This document shows, one piece after another, positions 2,999 through 22,343 of a stretch of 23,812 nucleotides of DNA. The notes beneath the pieces were generated by a model, which did not search any database, was not told the DNA's origin, and saw only the letters and a program-made list of their open reading frames with translations. Positions within the stretch are counted from its first letter, which is position 1. Every line of letters begins with the position of its first letter. Origin of the DNA: a virus; IMG/VR virus record IMGVR_UViG_3300040811_001441, positions 1 to 23,812 of that record. One strand, given 5' to 3'. The position numbers and the translations under genes are program-made.

Positions 2999-3499
2999 AT
3001 GCTTGCGTACATCAAAATTGGAATTGTTGTAGTAATTTTAGCAACCGGCGGTGTCGGCTATCTATACGTCCAAAAGCTGCAATCTGATTTGCAGACAGCC
3101 CGAGCAAACGTGGCAAAAATGGAAGTAGCAGTAGCGACCGCCGAAGCTAGTATTGCGACATTACAACAAGATGCCGCAAAGATGGCTGAACTCAACAATA
3201 AATTGTCTTCTGATTTACAAAAAGCTGAAGCGTACGGCGACGATTTGCGTGGTAAACTTCAAAGACATAATTTAACGGCTTTGGCTCTTAAAGAACCTGG
3301 CCAACTTGAAGGAAAGATGAATGGCGCGACTGCAAAGTTATGGCGTTCGCTCGAGCAAGATACTGGCGGTGCTGGCGATGATCCTCTTCCTTCCTGGTTG
3401 CAGCGCTCTCCTCCTCGGGAAGCCGGAACCGGAAGTGAAAGTGGTGACACAGATCCAGAAAACGACAGTACCGACGGTAGCTCGGCCGAAACCAATTAA
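2999..3499 (+). CDS. Rz: i-spanin (Rz-like inner-membrane lysis protein)
   Basis: This 166-aa protein has one N-terminal membrane segment (residues ~4-24), a long periplasmic coiled coil (~25-90), a conserved stretch ending GKMNGATAKLWRSLEQDTGG, and a Pro/Ser/Asp-rich tail. This is the plan of inner-membrane spanins, which join with an outer-membrane lipoprotein to fuse the two membranes in the last step of lysis. The partner gene starts inside this one in the +1 frame at 3321, the classic embedded Rz/Rz1 arrangement. Similar proteins occur in marine T4-like phages. Base composition is higher in GC over the dual-coding part. Confidence 0.85.
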   Translation: MLAYIKIGIVVVILATGGVGYLYVQKLQSDLQTARANVAKMEVAVATAEASIATLQQDAAKMAELNNKLSSDLQKAEAYGDDLRGKLQRHNLTALALKEPGQLEGKMNGATAKLWRSLEQDTGGAGDDPLPSWLQRSPPREAGTGSESGDTDPENDSTDGSSAETN

Positions 3500-3719
3500 T
3501 TTAACAGACACACGTTTATACGTTGTCAATACTGGTAATCTTGAAGAATTCTTAACGGAATTTGAAGAGGTCAATGGCAACCGAGCGTTTATCGCGTTTA
3601 GTGTTAAAGATTATGAAAATCTTTCTCTAAACATTGCTGAATTACGTAGATACATTAAACAGCAAGGCGAGATAATTATTTACTACGAAGAGGCGGTTAA
3701 ACCCGAAGAACCTGAATAA
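3321..3719 (+). CDS. Rz1: o-spanin (Rz1-like lipoprotein) with extended C-terminal domain
   Basis: This 132-aa protein starts within the i-spanin gene and is read in the +1 frame for 179 bp, then continues about 220 bp beyond it. A lipoprotein signal peptide is visible: basic R10/K13, hydrophobic ILAVLAMILF, and lipobox LPGC with Cys27 as the lipidated residue. A short Pro-containing segment (KPEPEVKVVTQIQ) follows. The C-terminal ~70 residues (TRLYVVNTGNLEEFLTEF ... IIIYYEEA) form a small alpha/beta domain, longer than classical Rz1, which is mostly a short Pro-rich peptide. Weak GGAAAG precedes the ATG. It should reside in the outer membrane and bind the i-spanin. Confidence 0.83.
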   Translation: MARLQSYGVRSSKILAVLAMILFLPGCSALLLGKPEPEVKVVTQIQKTTVPTVARPKPINLTDTRLYVVNTGNLEEFLTEFEEVNGNRAFIAFSVKDYENLSLNIAELRRYIKQQGEIIIYYEEAVKPEEPE

Positions 3720-9903: not shown

Positions 9904-9933
9904 ATTCGTAATAATAATTAAGTGAGTTATATT

Positions 9934-11130
9934 ATGGATTACTTGCAATATTTTGAGGATACGATAAAAGACTTTAAATCCGATGGACGATATAGAGTCT
10001 TTAACGATATCATTCGAGAAAAAGGAAATTTTCCTAAAGCAATATGGTATGGTAAGTATGCTCCAAAAAATATTGTAAATTGGTGCTCTAATGATTATCT
10101 AGGTATGGGTCAAAACCAATATGTTATTGATGCCATGCACACTGCGTTAGACCAAACAGGCGCAGGTTCTGGCGGTACTCGTAACATCGGCGGGACATCC
10201 CAATATCACGTTACCCTTGAGCGGGAACTTGCGCTGCTTCACAACAAAGAGGCGGCGCTTCTTTTTTCTTCGGCATATGTAGCAAATGAATGGTCGATTA
10301 TTGCTCTTAGCCGTATTATACCAAATATTTGTTATATTTCGGATACAAAGAATCATGCTTCTATTATTATGGGTGTTAAGCATAGCCGAGCACCGAAGCA
10401 TTTGTTTGAACATAACAATATGCAAGACTTGGAAGAAAAACTCGAAACCGCAGTTAAGAATAACCAAATCCCTTGTATTCTATTTGAGTCAGTTTATTCC
10501 ATGGACGGTGATGTATCACCCATCAAAGACATCTGTGATTTAGCAGATAAATATGGGGCAATAACTTATATTGATGAAGTTCATGCAGTTGGTTTGTATG
10601 GAGACACCGGCGCAGGTTATTGCGAACAGTTAGGTCTCCAAGATAGGATAACAATTATAAATGGAACATTGGGAAAAGCCTTTGGGGTTCAAGGTGGGTA
10701 TATTGCTGGCGATCGCATTGTTACTGACGCTATTCGGTCCGTGGCTTCTGGGTTCATCTTTACAACAAGTATCTCGCCCGCAATCTGCGCCGGTGCTATT
10801 GCCTCCATCAAATATCTCCGTGACCATCCTTCCCTCCGCAGAAGACATCAGAAAAAAGCAGAACAATTAAAGTATCTGCTCGGCCACGAAGATATTCATA
10901 TTCATCAAAACGCGTGCACACATATCGTACCCGTGATGGTTAACGATGCGTTTAAATGTAAAGCCGCGAGTGACCGTCTATTGAATGATTATGGAATTTA
11001 TATTCAACCAATTAACAGTCCTACAGTTGATCCTGGTACTGAAAGATTACGTATTGCGCCAACCCCTTATCACGACGATATAATGGTTATTGAATTGGTT
11101 ACTGCATTGAAAGAAGTACTATGTGGGTGA
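9934..11130 (+). CDS. hemA: 5-aminolevulinate synthase (ALAS, C4 pathway)
   Basis: This PLP enzyme condenses succinyl-CoA and glycine to 5-aminolevulinate, the first step of heme and other tetrapyrroles in alphaproteobacteria. ATG 9934 (398 aa) is chosen over GTG 9922 because the protein then starts MDYLQYFE and aligns directly with Rhodobacter-type ALAS. Visible residues: R21 (GRYRVF), [22 protein letters not shown] (T82, N84), H141 (KNHASI), S189 (ESVYSMDGD), D214/H217 (YIDEVHAVG), PLP-lysine K248 (NGTLGKAFG), and [11 protein letters not shown] near the C-terminus. The related enzymes KBL and BioF lack this whole combination. The gene is intact and full length. It lies next to the RNR genes under a late-type promoter. 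Internal patches are GC- and C-rich relative to neighbours. Confidence 0.96.
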
Positions 11131-13531: not shown

Positions 13532-15112
13532 ATGGCGGGAAAAGTTATTGACGTATTTCCATTTTTTGCACCTTACAACGAAGAGTTACTTTATCTTCGA
13601 GTAAACTTGCTAAAGGATCACGTTGACCACTTCATTATTGTTGAAAGCAATAAGACTCATTCTGGGTTGCCTGTTGAGCGAAAGTTTGAAGAGATTGCTC
13701 GTAAGCAAGGTCTTCCGATGGAAAAGATCATTTATATTCCACATGATATTCCTGAAACTGAAGATCTTGAAATTCGTAACATTGACCGTAAGAACGCGGG
13801 TGAGAACGGACGTAATGAAGAATCGGTACAAGCACGTTGCCGTGAACGTCTACAAAAAGATGCGGCAATGTCTGTTATTGACCAATTTGATAATGATGAC
13901 GTTTTCATTTATGGCGATATGGATGAGATCATCAATCCTCGTCACATTAAATGGGTAGCAAATATTGCACGTAATAATGAAGATTGGATTCTAAAGATTC
14001 CTCTTGTATATTTACAAGGACGTGCTGATTTGCGCATTCATCATCGCAATGGTAAGCCTGTTGTTTGGTGGCGTGCTATGTTCTTTGTAACACGAAATCA
14101 ATTAAGAGAAACAACGTTTAACAATATCCGCTGTGGATATATTCCATTGAAGATTACTTGGCCTGCACAGAATGGCCAAATCATTCAAGATATGGGTTGG
14201 CACTTTGCTTGGATGGGTAATAACGAACAGCGTAAAATTAAAGCTGACTCGTTTGCTCACGCACACGATAAATTCAAGTGGATGGCTGAAGGTGAAGGAT
14301 ACAATTCAGACGCATATCAAGCATATGTTTCAACAACCCAACCTGCAGAAGGTAAGGTTGCGCCAGATGGAAATGAAGATCATATTTTAAAACGGTATCC
14401 TATTGCCGAATTGCCTGATCTTATTTTTGAAACACCTATGGTTAAAGATTTCCTATTGCCTGAAACTAAAGTCGGTCAAGAGTTTGCCTTTAACGATTGC
14501 GGTTGTTATTGGTGCCAAAAACTTGAATGGCCGTTAATGTACGATCTTGATGGCAAACGCAAATGGTTTGAAGTACCTCGCAGTTGTTCTGTTACAATCA
14601 AAGAAAGCTTTCCAAATCGTAAACAGATTCTGCGCGAATCAGAAGAATACCAAGAATCAATTGATAATGGCGATAAGCCACTTGTTGTATTTACCGATCC
14701 TATTGAAAGGTTCTTGTCTTGTATGAATGTATACTTGGTTGAAGGACAACGATATTACGATTATGGTAAAGATATCTTTGATTCGTTTGGTGTTAACTTA
14801 GACGAATGCACAACGGAAGAAAAGGTTTCGAGTTTCTTTGCTAATCTGCACAAGATTACGAACAACCACCAGGTGCACCACTTCCATCCACAATGCCGAT
14901 TCGTTGATACACAAAGCTTTAAAGAGTTTACAGTTATCAATAAAATGGAAGTGTCAGATTTCCTGAAAACCGATAAACATTTGAATAGTACCGAATACGA
15001 AATTACACGTAAGGATTTATCGAGAGACCAAATCGCTTGGATACGTAATATCTATCAAAGTGATTACGATTTCTTTAAAGAGTATGGCGATGGCAAAAAG
15101 AAGAGTAAATGA
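13532..15112 (+). CDS. GT17-type glycosyltransferase with C-terminal sulfotransferase-like domain
   Basis: This 526-aa two-domain protein has residues ~1-300 resembling glycosyltransferase family 17 (beta-1,4-N-acetylglucosaminyltransferase type): IDVFPFFAPYNEELLYLRV at the start, HFIIVESNKTHSG, GDMDEI (128-133, the DxD metal site) and MGWHFAWMG (221-229). Residues ~340-510 look like a Sulfotransfer_2-type domain: EVPRSCSVTI (347-356) in place of the 5'-phosphosulfate loop (VPKTGSTSL-like), VVFTDPIERFLSCMN (385-399) like the 3'-phosphate loop (VRDPxERFLS), and HHFHPQCRFVD. A Cys-rich linker (CGCYWC, 323-328) joins them. It may transfer a sugar and then sulfate it. GT17 is clear; the sulfotransferase call is by motif only. 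Confidence 0.83.
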   Translation: MAGKVIDVFPFFAPYNEELLYLRVNLLKDHVDHFIIVESNKTHSGLPVERKFEEIARKQGLPMEKIIYIPHDIPETEDLEIRNIDRKNAGENGRNEESVQARCRERLQKDAAMSVIDQFDNDDVFIYGDMDEIINPRHIKWVANIARNNEDWILKIPLVYLQGRADLRIHHRNGKPVVWWRAMFFVTRNQLRETTFNNIRCGYIPLKITWPAQNGQIIQDMGWHFAWMGNNEQRKIKADSFAHAHDKFKWMAEGEGYNSDAYQAYVSTTQPAEGKVAPDGNEDHILKRYPIAELPDLIFETPMVKDFLLPETKVGQEFAFNDCGCYWCQKLEWPLMYDLDGKRKWFEVPRSCSVTIKESFPNRKQILRESEEYQESIDNGDKPLVVFTDPIERFLSCMNVYLVEGQRYYDYGKDIFDSFGVNLDECTTEEKVSSFFANLHKITNNHQVHHFHPQCRFVDTQSFKEFTVINKMEVSDFLKTDKHLNSTEYEITRKDLSRDQIAWIRNIYQSDYDFFKEYGDGKKKSK

Positions 15113-18259: not shown

Positions 18260-18422
18260 AATCATTGTCATTATACTTTTTCTTATTATGATGGCAATGG
18301 CTTTTTACAATTTATTAAGACCTGATGTTTGGCCTGACTGCAACACTTTGCTGTTAGAAGGATACAATACAGAACCAAATGATATTACAAAATGCGTTAA
18401 CAAAATCAAGGATCTAAAATGA
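18246..18422 (+). CDS. Small single-span membrane or exported protein (58 aa)
   Basis: TTG 18246 overlaps the cytidylyltransferase end by 14 bp. The product starts MKTLRIIVIILFLIMMAMAF, a positively charged N-terminus and a ~17-residue hydrophobic segment, followed by a soluble part with two Cys (C32, C50) that could pair outside the cytoplasm. The stop overlaps the next ATG as ATGA. The first ATGs lie inside the hydrophobic segment and would remove the basic start, so TTG is favoured although its ribosome site is weak. Confidence 0.65.
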   Translation: MKTLRIIVIILFLIMMAMAFYNLLRPDVWPDCNTLLLEGYNTEPNDITKCVNKIKDLK

Positions 18423-18592
18423 CAAAATTATTAACCGACGGCGAAATGGTTGTTTTGTTGCATAACATGGCACGAACAGTTGAACAAAATGGTTCTAAAG
18501 AGCAAGGATCTGAATTGCGACAGACCGCCGATAGATTCTCAGAATTATCAAAAGCCGCAAGTGTTGCGTATCATAAAGCACAGCAAGGGTGA
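18419..18592 (+). CDS. Small helical protein (57 aa)
   Basis: ATG 18419 overlaps the upstream TGA (ATGA) and the stop at 18590-18592 is one base before the phosphomannomutase-like ATG. AAGGAT at 18408-18413 is a fair ribosome site. The product (MTKLLTDGEMVVLLHNMART start) is amphipathic helical with ELRQTADRFSELSKAASVAY. I do not recognise it. Coupling on both sides supports it as a real gene. Confidence 0.7.
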   Translation: MTKLLTDGEMVVLLHNMARTVEQNGSKEQGSELRQTADRFSELSKAASVAYHKAQQG

Positions 18593-18593
18593 C

Positions 18594-19310
18594 ATGTACA
18601 GATTTATTTTTGATGTTGATGGAACTTTAACGCCGAGTCGTCAAAGGATTGATGATTCATTCCATGATCGGTTTTTACAATTTTGTAAAGAAGAACCTGT
18701 CTTTTTGGTTACAGGCTCAGATTATCCTAAAACCGTTGAGCAGTTAGGAGAAGATATCTGTTATCACGTTAAGCACGTGTTCAGCTGTTCAGGAAATGAT
18801 GTTTGGATGCAAGGTAAAAATATCCAAACAAACAAATGGGAAGTTCCTAAATCTGTTATGGAATGGCTTAGTGATGAGTTGATTCGTAGTCCATATCCTG
18901 AAAGAACTGGTAATCATATTGAGATACGGCCAGGTTGTTTGAACTTTAGTGTTGTCGGTCGTAACGCAACGCCTGAGCAAAGAAAGAGATATGCTAGGTA
19001 CGATGAGTACAATAAAGAAAGGCGAGGAATTGCCAGTACGTTTAATTATATCTTTGCTCAGTCAAACGCAAAAATTATAGCAAAGATTGGAGGAGAAACT
19101 GGATTAGACATATATCCTATAGGTAAAGACAAGTCTCAAATCATTAGTTACTTTCGTCCATATGACGATCTTGTATTCTTTGGAGATCGCATGGAAGAAG
19201 GAGGCAATGATAAACCTTTTGCGGATGTTAACACAAAAGGAATTAACCACCATGTTGACGGTTGGCGTCATACAATGGAAATCTTATCGTCAAATTATGG
19301 GATGGCGTAA
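18594..19310 (+). CDS. HAD-family phosphomannomutase, eukaryotic (PMM2-like) type
   Basis: This 238-aa protein has the HAD motif I FDVDGTLTP with catalytic D7 and D9, VTGSDY (motif II region), a cap domain with EIRPGCLNFSVVGRNA (~110-125) that matches the sugar-phosphate loop 'RPGMLNxSPxGR' of PMM, IGGETGLDIYPIGKDKS with K180, and FFGDRMEEGGNDKPF (D198, D206). This form of phosphomannomutase converts mannose-6-phosphate to mannose-1-phosphate and is typical of eukaryotes, with scattered bacterial and viral copies. ATG 18594 fits the motif start; longer in-frame openings lie over the preceding gene. It fits the group of sugar-nucleotide genes and could feed GDP-mannose, although no GDP-mannose pyrophosphorylase is seen here. 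Confidence 0.9.
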   Translation: MYRFIFDVDGTLTPSRQRIDDSFHDRFLQFCKEEPVFLVTGSDYPKTVEQLGEDICYHVKHVFSCSGNDVWMQGKNIQTNKWEVPKSVMEWLSDELIRSPYPERTGNHIEIRPGCLNFSVVGRNATPEQRKRYARYDEYNKERRGIASTFNYIFAQSNAKIIAKIGGETGLDIYPIGKDKSQIISYFRPYDDLVFFGDRMEEGGNDKPFADVNTKGINHHVDGWRHTMEILSSNYGMA

Positions 19311-19313
19311 ACT

Positions 19314-19321
19314 TATAAATA
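19314..19321 (+). promoter_or_regulatory. T4-type late promoter (exact TATAAATA)
   Basis: Exact TATAAATA just after the phosphomannomutase-like stop and 36 nt before ATG 19358. The same distance occurs at 2740-2747. Confidence 0.65.
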
Positions 19322-19357
19322 CCTTTAAGTTTTAGGCCATAGTGGAGAATACTATAT

Positions 19358-19630
19358 ATGTTTACAGTAGAGATGGATTGGGATGAAATTGCGATTACGG
19401 TTCTTGATGAAAGCGCTACGCACGAAGATGTTCAATGTTTAATTTACGAAGATACGGTTTATATGCGACAGTGGAACGATAAAGAAAATCGTTTTAGTGT
19501 TATAGGATTGTCGCCTGAAATGTTTGACGAATTGCGGATTTCTTTTGACCAAGGTGAAGGCGCCTATCGCCGTGAAACCATTCCGCTAGACGACGATGGC
19601 GAGTATGACTTTGGCGACGAGCAGTTTTAA
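19358..19630 (+). CDS. Conserved T4-like marine phage protein (90 aa)
   Basis: This 90-aa protein begins MFTVEMDWDEIAITVLDESA and includes YMRQWNDKENRFSVIGLSPEM, a pattern I recognise from small conserved proteins of marine T4-like phages. It is acidic, likely a compact alpha/beta domain, with an Asp/Glu-rich tail. GTGGAG precedes the start. A late promoter precedes it. The function is unknown. Confidence 0.85.
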   Translation: MFTVEMDWDEIAITVLDESATHEDVQCLIYEDTVYMRQWNDKENRFSVIGLSPEMFDELRISFDQGEGAYRRETIPLDDDGEYDFGDEQF

Positions 19631-19731
19631 AAAATTGGTACTAAGGCTACGGGGATTACCGCAAGGATCAACACGCAAAACGCTAATTCCCAACCACCAT
19701 CATTTTGTAAAATATCAATGATTCTTTTCAT
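19627..19731 (-). CDS. Possible minus-strand small membrane protein (34 aa)
   Basis: On the minus strand an ATG (19731-19729) opens a 34-codon frame ending at 19627, overlapping the stop of the + strand gene by 4 bp. The product starts MKRIIDILQNDGGWELAF, followed by a hydrophobic segment with Cys, Pro and Val to the end. AGGAG (complement of 19743-19747) lies 11 nt upstream, slightly long. A hairpin (19755-19795) precedes it. This would be the only minus-strand gene in the window. Confidence 0.4.
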   Translation of the reverse strand: MKRIIDILQNDGGWELAFCVLILAVIPVALVPIF

Positions 19732-19754
19732 TTAAGATTATACTCCTAGGATCT

Positions 19755-19795
19755 GATTCTGGGTGTTACTTGATGTAACATTTTAAACCCAAATC
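19755..19795. promoter_or_regulatory. Two-tier stem-loop in the 19631-19907 gap
   Basis: GATT (19755-19758) and TGGGT (19760-19764) pair with ACCCA (19787-19791) and AATC (19792-19795), with one bulged C. Inside, GTTAC (19765-19769) pairs with GTAAC (19775-19779) around a TTGAT loop, leaving ATTTTAA unpaired on the 3' side. No T run follows on either strand, so it is unlikely to be a terminator. It is 8 bp upstream of the minus-strand AGGAG and could be a structured leader. Confidence 0.45.
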
Positions 19796-19854
19796 TATAT
19801 ATAAAATAAAACATTGAATTACAGAAAAATTTCAAATTTTTTACAAATTATCTA

Positions 19855-19881
19855 TTGACACAACCTTTTGTTTAGTATAAT
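19855..19881 (+). promoter_or_regulatory. Sigma70-like promoter before 19908
   Basis: TTGACA (19855-19860) and TATAAT (19876-19881) are exact hexamers, 15 nt apart, shorter than ideal; TAATAT at 19878-19883 gives a 17-nt spacer with fewer matches. AT-rich sequence upstream may act as an UP element. Confidence 0.65.
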
Positions 19882-19907
19882 ATGGTTATATCAAATGGAG
19901 GAAAACA

Positions 19908-20183
19908 ATGAAAGTTGTAGAAGTAAGCGCATTGAGAGATTACGAAGGCTGCCAATGGACTCGTTTGTTCACCACTGAAGAAAAAGCGTGGGAATTTGTA
20001 CGTACTGCCGCCGCTGATGAGTGGTTGGGTGTTGATGACGTAAACGTTACCTGGGTTGGAGTTGATGAAGAATTCTACGATCGTGTTGAAAGTTTTGTAG
20101 TTACTTACGATTTGGAAAATGATAGTGCTACATTTCAGCGCTGGGATTTGGAAACAAAAGCGCATGTACCTTTTGAGGTCTGA
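19908..20183 (+). CDS. Acidic small protein (91 aa), unknown function
   Basis: GGAGGAAAACA is an excellent ribosome site for this ATG. The product begins MKVVEVSALRDYEGCQWTRL and reads as alternating beta strands and helix (TTEEKAWEFVRTAA, VTWVGVDEEFYDRV, SFVVTYDLEN), a compact alpha/beta fold. It is strongly acidic. It is the first gene after a strong early-type promoter, so it is a candidate for an early host-interaction protein. The family is not recognised. Confidence 0.8.
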   Translation: MKVVEVSALRDYEGCQWTRLFTTEEKAWEFVRTAAADEWLGVDDVNVTWVGVDEEFYDRVESFVVTYDLENDSATFQRWDLETKAHVPFEV

Positions 20184-20185
20184 TT

Positions 20186-20608
20186 ATGAGTATGCATATG
20201 ATTCGTGGAGTTCAAGTCCACGGTAGCAAAAAACGTAAACCAAAAAAACTTGATATGAAAGCAGTTGAGTTAGAATGGCGTCGTTATAACAAGGATATGC
20301 GCCGTAAGAATATGCATTATCTTCAGTTTGAAGAACTTGATGATTACGTAGCATATATCTCAGGAAAAATGCCAAAACGTAAAAAGGAGTTTGTACCGTA
20401 TGAAGTCCCGAAATCGAATGACCGCGACGAACCGCGCTATCCTAGCGTCAAGACGTCGGACACGATTCCTGGAGGAACCCCAAGGAAAGAGCCAAACAAA
20501 TACACAGGTGACCTCCTCGTCGGAATTGGAACAATGCACAAGTCAAACATGGTCCCAATTATGCGAGGAACAAATGAAGCAAAAGACATAGCTCGTATGC
20601 GGAGGTGA
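20186..20608 (+). CDS. Conserved T4-like marine phage protein, basic (140 aa)
   Basis: This 140-aa protein has a very basic N-terminal half (KKRKPKKLD ... WRRYNKDMRRKN), then YVAYISGKMP and a conserved C-terminal part that I recognise from marine T4-like phages: YPSVKTSDTIPGG, EPNKYTGDLLVGIGTMHKSN and a GTNEAKDIARMRR end. It may bind nucleic acid, judged from charge only. GAGG precedes the ATG and the gene begins 2 bp after the previous stop. Bases ~20420-20530 are more C-rich than the surroundings. Confidence 0.85.
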   Translation: MSMHMIRGVQVHGSKKRKPKKLDMKAVELEWRRYNKDMRRKNMHYLQFEELDDYVAYISGKMPKRKKEFVPYEVPKSNDRDEPRYPSVKTSDTIPGGTPRKEPNKYTGDLLVGIGTMHKSNMVPIMRGTNEAKDIARMRR

Positions 20609-20609
20609 T

Positions 20610-20936
20610 ATGTCGACCTACTATCCTGATAGCTGGGCTATCGTAAAAATTACAGGAACTGATCCACATTATAGAGTTTTTGGTTCTTGGTCTGGTGGAT
20701 ACCTTGATGGCGATTCTTGGAAACTTAATAGTGGTATTACTGATGTAACTGAAACAGAAACTCATTATCATTTTAAAGGGCATTCTGGTTCAGAATATGT
20801 TTGCCACAAAGAATCTTATGGTGTAAGATCAATTCATAATATTGGCGTACTTACTGATCTTTGTGAACGATCAGGTGGCAATGCAGAATACTTTAAAGAT
20901 ATGCCAGACGTTATGAACATGGATTGGATTATATGA
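20610..20936 (+). CDS. Conserved-looking phage protein (108 aa)
   Basis: GGAGGTGAT is a near-perfect ribosome site. The protein starts MSTYYPDSWAIVKITGTDPH and contains YRVFGSWSGGYLDGDSWKLN, a pattern familiar from small proteins of T4-like marine phages, then DVTETETHYHFKGHSGSEYVC, giving a beta-rich fold. The C-terminal ~40 residues include GVLTDLCERSG. No catalytic motif is recognisable. It overlaps the next gene by ATGA. Confidence 0.82.
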   Translation: MSTYYPDSWAIVKITGTDPHYRVFGSWSGGYLDGDSWKLNSGITDVTETETHYHFKGHSGSEYVCHKESYGVRSIHNIGVLTDLCERSGGNAEYFKDMPDVMNMDWII

Positions 20937-21906: not shown

Positions 21907-21932
21907 ACTATATTAGTTATGGAGTGTCTACT

Positions 21933-22343
21933 ATGTGGTATTATGAAGGTAAGGAATTTACCTCAGAAGATATCGGTGAATACATGGGATTTGTGTATAT
22001 CATTACCGATAAGACCAACGAAAAGAAATACGTTGGCAAAAAGCTTTTCAAATCAAAACGAAGATTGCCTCCACTCAAAGGTAAAACACGTCGTAGAACA
22101 AAAGTCGTCGAGTCGGATTGGCAGGATTACTTTGGATCCTCAGAAGAAGTTAAGATGCTTGTTGAGGAACATGGCCGCGATAACTTCCATAGAGAAATTT
22201 TGCACTTGTGTAATACAAAAGGAGTTATGAGTTACCTTGAAGCAAAAGAGCAATTTGACCGAAACGTCCTTCTTGACGATTCTTACTATAACGGTATCAT
22301 CCAGTGTAAGATCCATCGTTCCCACGTAAAAAATTTAAAATAA
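21933..22343 (+). CDS. GIY-YIG-like nuclease-family protein conserved in T4-like phages
   Basis: ATG 21933 is preferred to GTG 21924 because GGAG at 21920-21923 is 9 nt away. The 136-aa product starts MWYYEGKEFTSEDIGEYMGF and contains a degenerate GIY-YIG core: GFVYIITD, then KKYVGKKLF, with WQDYFGSSEEV, a conserved Glu in YLEAKEQFD, and IHRSHVKNLK at the end. Close relatives in marine T4-like phages are annotated as GIY-YIG or Seg-like endonucleases. It may cut DNA, but it is stably conserved rather than obviously mobile, so a housekeeping nuclease role is possible. Confidence 0.85.
   Translation: MWYYEGKEFTSEDIGEYMGFVYIITDKTNEKKYVGKKLFKSKRRLPPLKGKTRRRTKVVESDWQDYFGSSEEVKMLVEEHGRDNFHREILHLCNTKGVMSYLEAKEQFDRNVLLDDSYYNGIIQCKIHRSHVKNLK

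Follow-up and report, generated by a model that had tools for sequence, protein, structure and literature searches.

Host-interaction functions are often carried by genes that are very short, lie on the wrong strand and are easily missed. Small membrane proteins with a single span, read from short frames that often go unannotated, are a known kind (small-protein catalogue, PMC11364881). The product of a 34-aa frame on the minus strand at 19627–19731 of the DNA analysed here resembles them in size, in having one hydrophobic helix, in its Shine-Dalgarno site and in its conservation among close relatives. The whole stretch, referred to as the window, comprises 23,812 nucleotides of IMG/VR virus record IMGVR_UViG_3300040811_001441. 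This microprotein differs from them in being encoded tail-to-tail with its neighbour, on the minus strand within a block of plus-strand genes. It had no match among named phages (E up to 10), PHROGs or Pfam (up to E 1).

A second comparison is offered by phage T4, in which RNA structure sequesters the start regions of genes e, soc, 49 and I-TevI (PMC3014915). The locus described here likewise belongs to a phage that we read as T4-like and has a predicted RNA fold ahead of its start codon. It differs from the T4 genes in that the stable hairpin stops ~10 bases before the Shine-Dalgarno site, which takes part in only 5 bp of the predicted fold in the window and 6 bp in a relative, L004.

Genomic setting

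Positions 49453–73264 of a 77,680-base IMG/VR contig match the window at 99.95% identity; in this contig, TATAAATA boxes number 12 on the plus strand and three on the minus strand. The closest named phages to the DNA polymerase of this contig are Phage C48C1 (46.3%) and cyanophages (~45%), some of the matches being annotated gp43; the T4-like assignment is our reading of the sequence. DNA from 18400–20700 gave zero matches to named phages in a distant-mode search. The earlier note had placed the frame in a region transcribed in one direction, which is true of the window but not of the 77.7-kb contig, whose first 14.4 kb contain minus-strand gene blocks. It had also called the gap around the frame the longest between plus-strand genes, and at 277 nt (19631–19907) this gap is the largest in the window, a 306-nt gap in the gene calls being excluded by an o-spanin frame (3321–3719) that lies inside it.

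Elsewhere on the plus strand, an endolysin gene (1882–2739) is followed by overlapping, Rz-like spanin genes (2999–3499 and 3321–3719), and 18594–19310 encodes a eukaryotic-type phosphomannomutase in a phage (Pfam PMM, E 5.6e-27). The protein encoded at 21924–22343 (plus strand) matches PHROGs entries for NAD synthetase, by their label, at E 4e-44 and for homing endonuclease at E 3.6e-20, and is presumably a GIY-YIG-like nuclease. A class I/II aminotransferase gene (Pfam) lies at 9922–11130 on the plus strand, which we take to be a 5-aminolevulinate synthase. Phage-encoded AlaS has been published (PMC11480375).

Convergent with the microprotein gene lies a conserved 90-aa gene (19358–19630, plus strand). 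Among named phages only Roseobacter phages match it (11 records, 28–39% identity), and the genome collection contributes one Rhodobacteraceae bin contig (L193) to its family; taken together, these matches hint at an alphaproteobacterial host.

The microprotein gene and its homologues

The minus-strand frame runs from ATG to TAA, its stop overlapping that of the 90-aa gene by 2 bases, and is preceded by a Shine-Dalgarno AGGAG (19743–19747, minus strand) that is separated from the ATG by 11 nt. The C-terminal half is hydrophobic, with a Kyte-Doolittle maximum of 2.95 over 17 residues. The frame, its AGGAG and its membrane-like C-terminus are all present as first described. Minus-strand ATG frames of 28–60 aa with AGGAG or GGAGG 4–17 nt upstream number four in contig positions 14606–77506, the microprotein included; the other three fall within called plus-strand frames, leaving the microprotein as the only one outside.

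Relatives were gathered via the 90-aa gene, in which identity to the window is 100% for L001 and L002 (the same phage), 85% for both L004 and L003, 81% for L005 and 79% for L006. The best homologue is found in L006, a diverged contig: in a matching tail-to-tail position it carries a minus-strand frame, also of 34 aa (MKYVINILKSDTGWELALMCMVIASIPAAIMAIA), with AGGAGG upstream and 16 of 34 residues identical. A phmmer search with the window frame recovered it at E 5e-7 among 13,019 short frames from 118 sequences (the next, unrelated, frame being at E 3.3) and at E 8.2e-7 in a wider set of 21,492 frames from 198 sequences (next, E 0.16); a search of the L006 record alone gave E 1.3e-8. At the DNA level the two frames differ at 47 of 105 bases, divided 18/8/21 by codon position, and codons of the same meaning number 17 of 35 (stop included) against 9.8 expected (P 0.0004), in a neutral simulation that placed substitutions uniformly at random in 20,000 runs. 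Random change would leave this pair free of stops with a probability of 0.25, so the openness of the frame is by itself weak proof. The short frame is thus conserved with protein-level constraint between the window and L006, and more weakly in L004.

In L004 the same slot holds a 30-aa hydrophobic minus-strand frame (MKDIDVYSYVDYGIFVITMGVVILAILPIF), and a Shine-Dalgarno/start pattern, GGAGTATAA-N-CTT-N2/3-ATGAA, is common to it and the window. When the sequence was shuffled in full, none of 5000 runs reached their pairwise score, and when shuffling was confined to each half, 0.38% did; for L004 against L006, the score was equalled by 29.5% of half-shuffles. The L004 frame went undetected by phmmer with the window query, at E 3.6 standing behind an unrelated frame at 3.3, and a tblastn-type search of the L004 record with the window microprotein returned zero matches. 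Judged by its place, the stop overlap, the Shine-Dalgarno likeness and the pairwise shuffle test against the window, it is a probable homologue. The 2-base overlap of stops is shared by the window, L004 and L006, in all three of which the plus-strand gene encodes 90 aa, against 88 aa in L003 and L005.

Wider searches of viral contigs added little. Two scans for DNA encoding D(G/T)GWE(L/F)A returned 36 and five stretches, with the microprotein only in L144 and L150 (the window's own frame) and L006. The Shine-Dalgarno/start motif was found in seven stretches, two of the window type, one from L004 and four unrelated, and the promoter downstream on the plus strand in four: two of the window type, L004's contig, and L042, which begins within an L004-type leader and has its frame cut off. 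No new member emerged from phmmer over 197 loci and the window, the best other match having E 0.16 with the window as query and E 0.023 with L006, the latter biased in that it sits in a locus picked for the motif (L156).

L003 and L005 have no such minus-strand frame behind their homologue of the 90-aa gene and, since they are comparably close, the microprotein gene is accessory. Conservation in relatives, on which the earlier note had made its reading depend, therefore extends to three of five close lineages (the window, L006 and, weakly, L004). Constraint at the protein level between the window and L006, together with the correspondingly placed frame of L004, supports the suggestion that the minus strand carries a gene for a small membrane protein, and 19627–19731 is very probably protein-coding.

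The predicted protein

Hydropathy maxima are 2.95 in the window, 2.9 in L004 and 2.4 in L006. An AlphaFold2 model from the three-sequence alignment places helices at residues 2–11 and 13–30 (mean pLDDT 78.1, pTM 0.34), and by both hydropathy and model the hydrophobic stretch could span a membrane. In the 34-residue product, a short polar helix at the N-terminus would be followed by a single hydrophobic one that reaches the last residue; its insertion in the membrane is likely, with a topology that is probably N-in because the protein starts MKR.

The leader hairpin

Directly before the Shine-Dalgarno site, the two-tier stem-loop of the earlier note is present as described, and folding places it at 19758–19793 on the minus strand. 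In the minus-strand RNA its outer arms are TTTGGGT (19793–19787) and ACCCAGA (19764–19758), and its inner arms GTTAC (19779–19775) and GTAAC (19769–19765), enclosing a loop of 5. The 41-nt core folds at -10.4 kcal/mol and is moderately unusual, since of 1000 shuffles only 1.2% are as stable, a figure that is optimistic because the core was picked by eye; among sampled windows, the share as stable is 1.2% of 5008 with like GC content and 3.2% overall. The signal weakens with length, 3.9% of shuffles being as stable as a 67-nt leader and 30 of 200 as stable as a 91-nt leader (z -0.98). The inner 6-bp stem alone has P 0.16, and when the 176-nt region is shuffled, a loosely defined two-tier pattern still turns up in 29.3% of cases.

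The leader of L004 also folds as a two-tier hairpin, with 0.7% of shuffles as stable. Its inner arms, TGTAAC/GTTACA, differ from the TGTTAC/GTAACA of the window by one pair changed on both sides, a covariation seen by eye in two sequences. In a MAFFT alignment the inner arms are in register and the outer arms are not; our reading is that the outer arms of the two hairpins nevertheless correspond. L006 has no counterpart: 15% of shuffles are as stable as its 65-nt leader and 68.5% as its 100-nt leader, and in the last 75 nt the best Watson-Crick hairpin has only 4 pairs. The loose two-tier pattern does occur somewhere in the 143-nt region of L006 (as in 16% of shuffles), and a longer fold (seven of 200 shuffles as stable) is a different structure, which would pair the Shine-Dalgarno and start region only if the transcript begins far upstream. 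The stem is accordingly kept in two of the five lineages, the window and L004, and missing from L006, L003 and L005 having no leader to compare; the proposed regulatory leader gains from the L004 counterpart and loses from L006. The hairpin is probably real in two lineages, and we hold that it is not among the features that define the gene. A terminator was considered and rejected by eye, because a short plus-strand T-run after the inner stem in the window is absent from L004 and L006.

The same inverted repeat could instead be a DNA operator between divergent genes. The dyads between the two starts are perfect, TGTTAC-N5-GTAACA in the window and TGTAAC-N5-GTTACA in L004, but the half-sites of the two are not identical and the best L006 hairpin near the start is the 4-pair one, which makes an operator rather unlikely.

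The slot behind the 90-aa gene

The region behind the 90-aa gene was surveyed in 28 contigs of its family, leaving out L177, L179, L188 and the single genome contig L193. When the Shine-Dalgarno filter is loose, a minus-strand frame of at least 25 aa lies within 450 nt in 13 of these contigs; such frames are therefore common by chance, and a minus-strand frame alone means little. Hydropathy of at least 2.4 is found among those 13 only in the window, L004, L006 and L171. Slot content varies across the 28 contigs. In L166 (3248–3427) and L168 (3237–3402), tRNA-Met and tRNA-Arg lie directly behind the 90-aa homologue, with a further minus-strand frame beyond, and in L008–L010 the slot is filled by a frame with a CGFC motif, which we assume to be a glutaredoxin.

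The closest parallel is a minus-strand phrog_32327 gene in L171 (3235–3711) that abuts the 90-aa homologue tail-to-tail. Its protein resembles the microprotein in slot, orientation and a hydrophobic C-terminal stretch, but is 158 aa long, and its tblastn matches include neither the window nor the microprotein loci. Descent of the microprotein from the C-terminus of this protein was considered and rejected, with no tblastn similarity found. In L184 a minus-strand frame of 109 aa with hydrophobic stretches lies 143 nt further on, with no Shine-Dalgarno match in the filter. In most of the remaining contigs the next frame is on the plus strand. From the four genes that abut the 90-aa gene, three of which belong to one family, and the looser case of L184, the idea can be drawn that the slot in T4-like phages is a docking site for exchangeable membrane-protein genes on the opposite strand. 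The microprotein family, which brings a leader hairpin and a late-type box, would be the smallest of these and have a lineage-specific role in exclusion or host takeover; this we consider unlikely.

Plus-strand read-through of the 90-aa gene would be open for 34 codons in the window, 54 in L006, 18 in L004 and four in L003 and L005. A read-through product was rejected because there is nothing to prompt it and the L004 extension is short.

Transcription

An early-type promoter (TTGACA, TATAAT-like) at 19855–19883 on the plus strand serves the next gene (19908–20183) and faces away from the microprotein; by eye, L004 and L006 have a sequence like it. For the microprotein itself, a scan and comparison with L004 and L006 gave no convincing minus-strand promoter. 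The one nearby minus-strand scan hit (19874–19847, 9/12) is not kept by eye in L004 or L006, and the total over the whole scan, 30 sites, is close to the 31.7 expected by chance. The only shared candidate is NATATATA, part of a weak candidate late-type box in the window (TATATATA, 19796–19803, minus strand); its distance upstream of the ATG is 64 nt in the window, 57 nt in L004 and 37 nt in L006. The cyanophage late promoter consensus is NATAAATA (PMC2984593). NATATATA is one base off this consensus, falls short of a T4-type late promoter in all three lineages, and is weak promoter evidence because such boxes number 12 and nine on the two strands of the contig.

Late expression would suit a lysis-related microprotein, such as a small holin or holin antagonist. 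A single hydrophobic helix, the NATATATA box before the ATG in three lineages, and endolysin and spanin genes within the window are all consistent with such a role, but those genes lie ~16–17 kb away on the opposite strand, the frame is absent from L003 and L005, and the box is off consensus and common on both strands; we regard a lysis function as quite improbable.

Antisense RNA could possibly arise by read-through from the plus-strand gene, and in a test for a type I toxin-antitoxin antisense the scan listed no sigma-70-like plus-strand site in 18574–19855. A non-coding or antisense RNA as the product of the region, with an incidental frame, is very improbable, and the earlier note's alternative of a non-coding RNA is disfavoured as the whole explanation: the hairpin has a counterpart in L004 and a leftward transcript would enter the 3' end of the plus-strand gene, but the constraint between the window and L006 fits the minus reading frame, L006 has the best-conserved frame and no hairpin, and Rfam at gathering scores gave no match.

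Conclusions

The reading we prefer, with a probability of about 0.6 as a whole, is that a minus-strand gene encodes a single-pass inner-membrane microprotein, made from its own leftward message, that functions in host interaction or exclusion. Transcription would proceed leftward on a short message of its own, which the leader hairpin may stabilise or tune in the window lineage and L004, while being dispensable elsewhere. The product would insert in the inner membrane and then bind a host or phage membrane partner, in a manner resembling superinfection-exclusion and other host-interaction microproteins, and by this analogy its role is probably one of host interaction or exclusion. The importance of the finding is small until a function is shown, and two clear versions with a probable third make the microprotein worth a cheap, defined test.
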